Origin: Methanocalculus natronophilus
GTDB lineage: Archaea > Halobacteriota > Methanomicrobia > Methanomicrobiales > Methanocorpusculaceae
Assembly: GCF_038751955.1 (NCBI RefSeq)
Contig: NZ_JBCEXH010000003.1
Coordinates: 1 to 64,000, forward strand
Length of the DNA: 64,000 nucleotides
Reading direction: 5' to 3'
The translations under genes were made by a program, and so were the position numbers. Of this stretch, positions 52,282 through 55,661 are shown in pieces. The notes under the pieces are model-generated. The model did no database searches, was not told the origin of the DNA, and saw only the letters and a program-made list of their open reading frames with translations. The number at the start of each line of letters is the position of its first letter. Position 1 is the first letter of the stretch.

Positions 52282-53451
52282 CTAATCATTCGAAAGCGCT
52301 TCGATTGGATTTAACTGTGCTGCCCGGTGAGCCGGGTAGACTCCGGCTGCAATACAGATGACGACGCCGATACACATGCCGTAGATGACGGTAAAGAGGG
52401 TATGAAATGTCATCAGATACTTGACATCCTGCATGATCAGCATGATCAAAAGCCCTCCACCGACGAAACTGAGCACTCCTCCGATGACTGATCCGATCAG
52501 CCCGAGAATTGCTGCTTCATAGAGGAACATCTTGCTGATGTCCACTTTTTGTGTCCCGATGCTCCGGAGAATACCAATCTCCTTGATCCGTTCATTCACC
52601 GAGATAAGCATCACATTCAGGATGCTGACTGCGGCAACAAGGAGCGATATGCCACCTATTGCAATCACAAAGAGCGATATCTGGCCGATAGCCTCCTGTA
52701 TGGATTCGAGGATCCCCCTGAAATCCATCACATTCACGACATCCTCCCGCCGGTTCAGCCGTCTTTCAATCTCGTCCTTTATACCGTCAATGTCATCAAC
52801 ATTCTCAATGGTTATGACCACCTGGTCATACTTGCCCCGCCCACCGTATCGGGATTCATACCATCGTTCTGATGCGATAATGGCATTATCTGTCTGAATA
52901 CCTGCACCAAATCCGGTGTTCTCGAGGATGCCGACAACCCTTGCCCGCTGTTCGCGTCCACCTGTGCCGATTGTGATGAAGTTTCCTTCACGAAGATCAT
53001 AACGGCGGGCAAAACTCTCCCCGACCATCACACCTTCGGTTCCTGAGACATAACGGCCTGATTTTATCTCAGTAAGCCGCTGGATCTCATGAGGATCGAC
53101 TCCATAGACAGAGGCATATCCACGATCATCACCAACCCTGATCTGGTCATAGGTCTGGTAAAATGCAATAACCGGGTTTCTCCCGGCTGCCATCTCGATC
53201 TGCCGGACATCCCTCTCTGTTATCCCGCTCTTTTCAGCGTCTGTAGAGGGTACTGCCGGGGTAATAATGAGCTGGTTGCCCATGCCCATCAGCTCATCCC
53301 CGACAGACTGTTCTATTGCGCCGCCAAGCATTCCCATCGAGGTGATTGCAACAACGCCGATGATGATACCAATGGCAGCAAGGATGGATCTGAAGAGGTT
53401 AAGTCTCACATTCCTCAACGCCAGGTCAAATGTTATGCCAGGGCGTATCAC
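52282..53451 (-). CDS. MacB/FtsX-type ABC transporter permease
   Basis: Permease of a lipoprotein- or peptide-type ABC exporter, 389 residues. A first helix (about 18-40, SILAAIGIIIGVVAITSMGM) is followed by a large exterior MacB domain (about 45-260). Three C-terminal helices (about 267-290, 315-345 and 350-378) form the FtsX module, with VNERIKEIGILRSIGTQK. The stop-to-start overlap with the ATPase gene is 4 bp. The substrate is unknown. Confidence 0.9.
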   Translation of the reverse strand: MIRPGITFDLALRNVRLNLFRSILAAIGIIIGVVAITSMGMLGGAIEQSVGDELMGMGNQLIITPAVPSTDAEKSGITERDVRQIEMAAGRNPVIAFYQTYDQIRVGDDRGYASVYGVDPHEIQRLTEIKSGRYVSGTEGVMVGESFARRYDLREGNFITIGTGGREQRARVVGILENTGFGAGIQTDNAIIASERWYESRYGGRGKYDQVVITIENVDDIDGIKDEIERRLNRREDVVNVMDFRGILESIQEAIGQISLFVIAIGGISLLVAAVSILNVMLISVNERIKEIGILRSIGTQKVDISKMFLYEAAILGLIGSVIGGVLSFVGGGLLIMLIMQDVKYLMTFHTLFTVIYGMCIGVVICIAAGVYPAHRAAQLNPIEALSND

Positions 53452-54128
53452 TGGATCACCCCGTCACGGATCGTGATTATGCGGTCGGCATAGGTTGCAA
53501 TCTCATCTGAGTGGGTAACCATCACAATCGTCTTTCCATGACCGTTGAGTTCTGTCAGGAGATCCATGATCTGCTGGCCGGTTTTGGAGTCCAGGTTGCC
53601 TGTCGGCTCATCACAGAGGAGGATCCTTGGGTCGTTTGCAAGGGCGCGGGCGATTGCCACACGCTGCTGCTGGCCACCGGAGAGCTGGTTTGGCGTATGG
53701 TGGATATGCCCTCCTTCAAGCCCGACCAGCCCGAGCAGTTCGGCGGGCCTGCCGCTTGTATCCCTGGCGCCCGTTTTCAGGATCAGGGGGTACTCAACAT
53801 TTTCAAATGCAGTTAATAGCGGGATTAAATTGAACTTCTGGAAGATGAAGCCGATTGCATCCCGCCTGAGGTCTGTCAGCTCGATATCCGAGAGTTCCCG
53901 GGTGTTCTTCCCTTCAATATACAGGTTGCCTTCTGTCGGCTGGTCAAGGCAGCCGATCTGGTTCAACAGGGTTGTCTTCCCCGATCCTGATGCACCCATG
54001 ATCGCAACAAACTCCCCAACACCGATATCAAGGGTGACACCATCCAGTGCATAGACATCCCCTGCCTCCATCGGGTATATTCGCCTGACATCTTCCAGCC
54101 GAATACAGGTATCTCTCATTCCTTCCAT
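53448..54128 (-). CDS. ABC transporter ATP-binding protein (MacB/LolD type)
   Basis: Nucleotide-binding subunit of the MacB-type exporter, 226 residues. Walker A is [11 protein letters not shown] (about 43-53), the signature [15 protein letters not shown] (about 147-161) and Walker [13 protein letters not shown]. Initiation may be at the ATG at 54128 or at 54119. A TATA-like element lies inside a 19-bp palindrome 39-57 bp upstream. The gene is divergent from the 68-residue putative regulator, whose promoter region carries the TGTTACA array. Confidence 0.93.
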
Positions 54129-54185: not shown

Positions 54186-54248
54186 ATTTGTGGAACCCGG
54201 GTGACTGTTGTTTCATCCTGGAACTCCCCCTGCTCCATTGTTGCAGGG

Positions 54249-54320
54249 TGTAACAAACGTATTCCGGATATGTTACAATATGTTACACTGCCCCGAAACA
54301 ATATGTTACAATATGTAACA
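54249..54320. promoter_or_regulatory. array of five TGTTACA/TGTAACA heptamers
   Basis: Heptamers start at 54249 (TGTAACA), 54271, 54281 and 54304 (TGTTACA) and 54314 (TGTAACA). Two pairs share the spacer ATA: a direct repeat at 54271-54287 and an inverted repeat TGTTACAATATGTAACA at 54304-54320. The last abuts the TATA-like ACATATAT before the 68-residue gene. Spacings of about 10 and 22-23 bp match turns of the helix, which suggests cooperative binding. Confidence 0.6.
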
Positions 54321-54351
54321 TATATCATCTCTCACGCAGATCAGTATTCCC

Positions 54352-54558
54352 ATGTCCAGAGTGGTCAGGATTGCAGATGATGCCTATGATCTCGCACATG
54401 CGTATGGATCGTCTGTCAGCGAGGGTGTCCGTATCATGGACGCACTCATCCGGGAGTTACGGAGCAGATCCAAAGACGGCATTGATGAGAAAGCAATGGA
54501 GCGATTGATCAGGACAGCAGTCCGTGAAGAGATCGAGGCTGCAATCTACCGTGGGTAG
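54352..54558 (+). CDS. 68-residue putative DNA-binding protein (ribbon-helix-helix-like)
   Basis: I do not recognise a named family. The 68-residue product starts with a short strand-like segment, MSRVVRIADDAYDLAHAYG, then a helix, SVSEGVRIMDALIRELRSR. A second charged helix ends AVREEIEAAIYRG. The strand-helix-helix layout and size resemble ribbon-helix-helix regulators or antitoxins. No toxin-like partner is adjacent. The start ATG is about 32 bp after the TGTTACA array, consistent with autoregulation. It lies divergent from the MacB-type transporter and 86 bp before the asparagine-synthetase-like gene. Confidence 0.6.
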   Translation: MSRVVRIADDAYDLAHAYGSSVSEGVRIMDALIRELRSRSKDGIDEKAMERLIRTAVREEIEAAIYRG

Positions 54559-54644
54559 TCTGATTACCGGGGGTAGCCTGATGTATCATATGCGTTTCTT
54601 ATATGGAGAGAGTTGTGTGTACTATGTTTTCTGAGGTTTCACGG

Positions 54645-55661
54645 ATGGCTCAGGACTGCCTGATCAATGGATGGGTGGAGGAAGACGGCTCTCTCCTTCC
54701 CGATGACGAGATAAGGCGAGCAATCCTGCATGAACCTGATCGCGTCTGCAGGTTTGGCGGGGAATTTGCCATCACCTGTGGCAGATACCGGCTCCGCGAT
54801 CATCTCGGGATATTTCCAGGAGACGCTCCACCGGGGATATTTGAGAAAGATGCCAGCCCGATCTGCAGGATAGATCCGAACCCCCCGCTCATGCCGCTTG
54901 CCGATGCAATTCAGACGGCAGTCCGCCTGCGAAGCTCTGTACACAGTGTCGTCGCCCTCTCAGGGGGCGTTGATTCGGCTCTCATCGCCCGCCTGGCAGG
55001 TCGTCCCTGCATCGGTACCGGTCTGCCCGGATCGCACGATCTTCTCCGTGGCAGGGCCGTAGCTGAGCGTCTGGGCTGTCAATTTACCGCAATTGAGATC
55101 GATCCTGGAGAGGTTGAGGACGTGCTGATCCGGATTCTCCCGCATCTTCCTTCCAGAAGCCCTGTTGACGCCGGGATAGCAGCAACCCTCTTCTTCCTCT
55201 GCCGTGCAGCCGCTGAGATGGGCTATGATCGGATACTCTCCGGTCAGGGTGCCGACGAACTCTTCTGCGGATACACAAGGCATCTACAGAGCCTGGATCT
55301 GGCAGCAGATCGTGCAGGGGATCTGGCAGATCTCCCGCGCCAGCTTGCACGGGATCAGGCAGTTGCCGGCATCAGCGGTGTCTGGCTCTCCATGCCCTAC
55401 CTGGATCTCCGGGTTCTGCGCGCCGCAGACCATCTGCCTGTGAATGATATGATACAGTCAGGTGTCAGAAAATATCCCCTCCGCCTGGTTGCATCTGCTC
55501 ATATGCCAGAGGATATCGCATGGTATGAGAAGAAAGCGATGCAGTATGGGAGCGGTGTCTGGAAGACCATCCAGGCTCGTGCACAGGAAAGAGGTTTTAA
55601 AAGGGCAGTACAAGGGTACATGAATCATTTGCAGGAAGGTGGGGCAGAAGATGGTCTCTAA
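54645..55661 (+). CDS. asparagine-synthetase-like protein lacking the glutaminase active site
   Basis: ATP-pyrophosphatase of the AsnB C-terminal family, about 338 residues from ATG 54645. TGAGGT lies upstream of this ATG; ATGs at 54603 and 54624 are alternatives, but a TATA-like TTATATGG at 54598-54605 makes the first improbable. Only a shrunken N-terminal remnant (about 1-65, with FAITCGRYRLRDHLGIFPG) of the glutaminase domain remains, without the N-terminal Cys nucleophile. The synthetase domain has SGGVDSA (about 107-113), the ILSGQGADELFCGY loop (about 196-209) and LSMPYLDLRVL. The 3' end overlaps gatC by 11 bp. The function is uncertain: an ammonia-dependent Asn synthetase or another amide-forming enzyme. 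Confidence 0.82.
   Translation: MAQDCLINGWVEEDGSLLPDDEIRRAILHEPDRVCRFGGEFAITCGRYRLRDHLGIFPGDAPPGIFEKDASPICRIDPNPPLMPLADAIQTAVRLRSSVHSVVALSGGVDSALIARLAGRPCIGTGLPGSHDLLRGRAVAERLGCQFTAIEIDPGEVEDVLIRILPHLPSRSPVDAGIAATLFFLCRAAAEMGYDRILSGQGADELFCGYTRHLQSLDLAADRAGDLADLPRQLARDQAVAGISGVWLSMPYLDLRVLRAADHLPVNDMIQSGVRKYPLRLVASAHMPEDIAWYEKKAMQYGSGVWKTIQARAQERGFKRAVQGYMNHLQEGGAEDGL

Follow-up and report, generated by a model that had tools for sequence, protein, structure and literature searches.

Between a divergently transcribed MacB-type ABC transporter operon and a small gene of Methanocalculus natronophilus lies a cluster of short repeats of the form TGTWACA (Table 1), which raises the question of which protein binds these repeats and which gene they control. 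The initial annotation of this locus had proposed a cooperative operator through which a protein of 68 aa regulates its own gene, and possibly also the transporter. Here we followed up that proposal by comparing the 64-kb window, i.e., the whole stretch of DNA analysed, with related genomes and with viral contigs.

The heptamer array and the small protein

The array consists of six heptamers in three pairs at positions 54239-54320 (82 bp), with spacers of 3 bp and a pair pitch of 32 bp and then 33 bp. Five heptamers, two ATA spacers, 10-bp steps, gaps of 22-23 bp, and contact with a TATA-like stretch had been described, and all of these were found as claimed; the five copies are correct, but a sixth, TGTTGCA at 54239-54245, had been overlooked. 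This heptamer is degenerate (one mismatch) and completes a further pair (pair 1 in Table 1), which aligns with pair 1 of five sibling genomes; pair 3 is the best-kept block within the upstream region in the alignment of the genus. TGTTACA occurs nine times in the window against 2.96 expected, with five of the occurrences inside 72 bp of the array. The genome-wide search that had been suggested found exact TGTTACA-N3-TGTWACA only at the array in the whole host genome (2.0 Mb, 143 contigs); allowing TGTAACA as the first heptamer added two exact sites, both on another contig.

Table 1. Coordinates of the array, its neighbours (positions of the 64-kb window), and the viral loci (contig positions).
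Feature	Position	Strand	Remarks
Operator pair 1	54239..54255	.	TGTTGCA-ggg-TGTAACA; slot about -113; TGTTGCAgggTGTAACA
Operator pair 2	54271..54287	.	TGTTACA-ata-TGTTACA; slot -81; TGTTACAataTGTTACA
Operator pair 3	54304..54320	.	TGTTACA-ata-TGTAACA; slot -48; adjoins TATA-like stretch; TGTTACAataTGTAACA
TATA-like stretch ATATAT	54320..54325	+	putative TATA box, from sequence
68-aa probable ribbon-helix-helix regulator, predicted array binder	54352..54558	+	no Shine-Dalgarno
AsnB-like protein (Asn_synthase domain)	54603..55661	+	44 bp downstream; probably co-transcribed
ABC transporter ATPase	53448..54128	-	divergent; not a conserved array partner
MacB/FtsX-type permease	52282..53451	-	divergent; not a conserved array partner
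Viral homologues with three-pair arrays	L185:4421-4693; L191:4058-4331; L196:8541-8813

No family of Pfam or NCBIfam covers the 68-aa protein. RHH_1/CopG (PF01402) did not match the window protein at the curated cut-off, and only one of 34 members touched this family (E 0.089). The residues V4, R6, Y18, S23, G25, and M29 are invariant in the alignment, and we take V4 and R6 to be the strand residues that face the DNA, the register being set by analogy with NikR. The AlphaFold monomer (pLDDT 83.6, pTM 0.46) has an extended segment at residues 1-8, helices at 9-18 and 22-41, and an extra helix at 46-67. Foldseek gave no match to this model in the PDB, and a profile search of the PDB returned only weak matches to proteins without evident relevance. 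Because the secondary structure fits but the fold search was empty, we infer the fold from the model: the protein is probably of the ribbon-helix-helix type with an additional C-terminal helix.

Relatives of this protein were found in 48 of 100 related genomes, with one copy each. A survey of the phylum (394 genomes) detected it in 39 genomes, all belonging to the order of the host, and a survey of the class in 76 of 232 genomes, where the few second matches came from fragmented assemblies, plus one weak match. Neither the 100-genome nor the 394-genome survey found it in f3 and f6, two families of the order (families are labelled f1, f2, and so on).

Conservation of the lattice and its candidate target genes

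At least one pair lies within 130 bp upstream of the gene in 40 of the 42 orthologues read, which are not independent of one another, and at least two pairs are present in 37 of them, while dinucleotide-preserving shuffled sequences gave 0.0095 pairs per sequence and never two pairs. The 220 heptamers share the consensus TGTWACA; G2 and C6 each fail once, and the central base is A in 126 and T in 94. Because the central base is free, each heptamer has its own dyad and is a near-perfect 7-bp palindrome. The spacer is generally 3 bp, but mostly 4 bp in family f5, in whose genomes all exact matches with a 4-bp spacer fall within the array of the small gene.

The pairs are also fixed in position. 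Successive pairs follow at a pitch of 31 or 32 bp in 68 of 76 cases, and they occupy slots about -112, -80, and -48 from the start codon in f1 and most of f5, or about -79, -47, and -16 in f2, f4, and one f5 genome; at slot -16 the last heptamer mostly overlaps into the ATG. The region -30 to -26 from the ATG is 85-95% A+T in the orthologues. A Shine-Dalgarno-like motif was seen in one of the 42 orthologues, and such signals being nearly absent, the mRNA of the small gene is probably leaderless, as judged from the sequence.

In the host genus (six genomes) the heptamers are conserved while the surrounding upstream DNA has diverged, and in four families of the order the array occurs together with the small gene. 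Where the gene was not detected, in eleven genomes, only scattered near-matches are present (58 vs. 42 for the control pattern, two mismatches allowed). The array and the 68-residue gene are thus kept together in relatives and mostly absent together, as the joint conservation raised by the initial annotation would have it. One locus, L086 (G032:C243:4692-4740), has two array pairs in a genome where the regulator is undetectable, owing to loss or an assembly gap.

Which neighbouring genes share this history? The proposed control of the MacB transporter is unsupported: its operon is divergent from the array in the host genus only, a gene intervenes between transporter and array in four of five sibling genomes (the assignment in the fifth being less certain), and in other genera the transporter does not neighbour the array. 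The next gene downstream encodes the AsnB-like protein in f1 and a calcineurin-like phosphoesterase (named by eye) in f2, while f5 has no consistent downstream neighbour. The AsnB-like protein (~350 aa; no separate glutaminase domain was matched in Pfam) is single-copy through nearly the whole order. We rejected its gene as an obligate partner, as it is present in 90 of 100 genomes and mostly distant from the small gene outside f1. Further neighbours in the window are GatC/A/B-like and topoisomerase genes, named by eye from their sequences. On these comparisons of gene order, the lasting linkage of the array is to the regulator's own gene. The exceptions are two genomes of a single genus, G063 (L050) and G097 (L047), in which the array is missing before the regulator and two pairs instead lie directly before the phosphoesterase gene immediately downstream of it, suggesting that the phosphoesterase gene is a true target there.

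No wider regulon was found in pattern scans of the host and its relatives. Outside the array, two-mismatch matches somewhat exceeded the control in five of the six genomes of the genus and equalled it in the sixth. The strongest extra exact matches, which we rejected as a regulon, have the opposite orientation, and those that we opened, among them sites in the gap between a tRNA gene and the rRNA region and sites at the terminus of a UDP-glucose-dehydrogenase-like gene, are unlike the three-pair lattice. One-mismatch sites common to three f4 genomes were likewise set aside, lying near ferredoxin-type genes and not at a copy of the small gene. Four TGTWACA-like heptamers spaced by 10 bp directly follow a tRNA gene in an rRNA region in two genomes (G002:C43:3443-3479 and G007:C30:85-121); they may be a processing stem and not an operator.

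Proposed autorepression and its alternatives

The array is very probably the on/off switch of the 68-aa protein's own gene, as its conserved position in dozens of related methanogens and in some tailed viruses argues. The autoregulated cooperative operator of the initial annotation is strongly supported by its occurrence in four families, by a lattice fixed to the promoter, and by its absence together with the gene, with binding as the predicted step. We consider it likely that the 68-aa protein is a cooperative ribbon-helix-helix autorepressor, dimers of which load pairwise and mask the promoter, a model in which fold, binding, stoichiometry, and repression are all predicted. Each near-palindromic heptamer would fit one dimer. 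Within a pair, where the heptamers are separated by a single helical turn, two dimers would be in contact, and the three pairs, which follow one another about every three turns along the same face of the DNA, would allow cooperative loading. The promoter-proximal pair, which adjoins the putative TATA box (-48) or lies between it and the start codon (-16), would when occupied block TBP/TFB or RNA polymerase. The outcome would be tight negative feedback on the regulator and any co-transcribed gene, such as the AsnB-like gene here, although the pairs at -112 and -80 could be activating instead. The two orthologues without an array before their own gene (G063 and G097) speak against this model.

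That another regulator uses the array as its operator and controls the small gene, while the small protein is not the binder, seems to us improbable. The weak fold assignment of the 68-aa protein and the predicted nature of its binding leave room for it, but a third-party regulator would have to match the phylogenetic pattern of array and gene, which are gained and lost together across genomes and which both occur on virus contigs in tail-gene clusters. We regard it as quite improbable that the array is a centromere-like or terminus element and the protein a DNA marker like omega, ParG, and SegB, with autoregulation being secondary. A single array per genome with hardly any other sites would suit such a role, and ribbon-helix-helix centromere proteins are known to use promoter-overlapping arrays (PMC9499535, PMC12284271). 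The gene also lies far from the main orc1/cdc6, at a genus mean of 0.403 of the genome length (P 0.0004 vs. uniform placement), compared with 0.306 for the AsnB-like control, as measured in 14 complete or nearly complete genomes of nine genera that are non-independent, with orc1 assumed to mark the origin. Against it, no adjacent ParA-type ATPase gene of the kind that defines SegAB and ParABS systems was found among the window neighbours examined (those in relatives were compared as clusters, some of them named), and the lattice keeps a fixed register with the start codon and the TATA stretch, as expected of an operator. It is highly improbable that the protein is antitoxin-like, one half of a toxin-antitoxin pair that regulates itself through repeated sites. 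Small ribbon-helix-helix antitoxins frequently autoregulate from repeats, and in L185 the viral copy has a HicA gene nearby. However, no partner resembling a toxin has been retained (AsnB-like in f1, phosphoesterase in f2, none evident in f5), and no adjacent toxin gene, as in type II systems, was found in the window or among the neighbours examined in relatives.

The preferred model, autorepression by the small protein, has precedents. MetJ binds tandem near-palindromic boxes with one dimer per box and represses promoters cooperatively; its boxes are 8 bp and contiguous, it requires a co-repressor, and it has many targets, while no such regulon was seen here. The omega protein (ParB) of plasmid pSM19035 is a ribbon-helix-helix dimer that recognizes 7-bp sites in direct or inverted orientation, with one dimer per heptad, high affinity requiring two or more heptads, and arrays overlapping promoters, its own among them (PMC9499535). 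The present system resembles omega in its small protein, here probably of the same type, its direct and inverted heptamers, and its array over the gene's own promoter. However, the heptads of omega (WATCACW) lack palindromic symmetry, adjoin one another in runs of 7-10, and function in partition together with a ParA, whereas the present heptamers are near-palindromic and grouped into separate pairs at intervals of three turns, and the listed neighbourhood contains no ParA gene.

Among archaea, CdrS of haloarchaea is a small ribbon-helix-helix regulator that binds a symmetric motif ahead of promoters (PMC7439475, PMC8406309). It shares a transcript with ftsZ2, and 18 of its sites have been mapped, whereas essentially one array exists here; neither ftsZ nor ftsZ2 is among the listed window neighbours of the small gene, and the neighbours vary in relatives. 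SegB of Sulfolobales, also of the ribbon-helix-helix type, binds palindromes just upstream of its own operon (PMC12284271), but it has the ATPase partner SegA, TCTAGA-S-TCTAGA sites, and tens of chromosomal sites, unlike the single array described here. The earlier remark that no archaeal regulator with a TGTTACA site is known holds for the open-licence papers searched, in which none is described. Small autoregulated ribbon-helix-helix proteins acting on repeated sites are already known (omega, MetJ, and antitoxins); what is new here is the family of proteins, together with its operator sequence, its viral copies, and a three-turn lattice locked to fixed slots. The comparison thereby defines, from sequence alone, both the operator and its small archaeal regulators, which form an undescribed family spread across the order. 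Cooperativity and occlusion of the promoter become testable in vitro through the lattice, in which palindromic heptamers stand in pairs with a three-turn pitch and fill three of four fixed slots around a probably leaderless promoter.

Viral and proviral copies

Viral contigs were scanned for two linked pairs. Three of them (L185, L191, and L196) encode homologues 41-56% identical to the chromosomal proteins, each with an array of three pairs that has the chromosomal pitch and ends on the start codon. They lie in contractile-tail clusters, in which sheath, tape measure, baseplate hub, and baseplate J were recognized. L182 and L226 encode more distant look-alike proteins with similar pairs, and a three-pair array follows a neck-protein gene at L192:12708-12787, where a copy of the regulator is not recognizable. 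Two further groups of contigs were rejected, namely L183, L186, L187, L189, L193, L195, and L197, which are mutually similar, low in G+C, and carry direct-orientation repeats, and L184, L188, and L190, whose array matches are plain tandem repeats; in neither group was a homologue found. A search of 50,697 phage records returned no relative.

In a tree of 40 rows, which has few columns and is weak, the viral proteins fall into a single clade, and those from chromosomes group mostly by family. We entertain, as a doubtful reading, that the gene and its lattice are a self-regulating module exchanged between methanogen chromosomes and tailed viruses, each reading the operators of the other; the module might then have originated, equally tentatively, as a domesticated viral repressor or as a host regulator recruited by viruses. 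The viral copies in any case pose a testable question of regulation shared by methanogens and their viruses.

Proviral regions of two genomes (L132, L141, and L134 in G014 and G010) carry one near-perfect TGTTACA-N3-TGTAACA pair. It lies ~17 bp before a small membrane-protein gene beside a capsid-like gene, in three of ten related elements, and is possibly a host operator used by the provirus.
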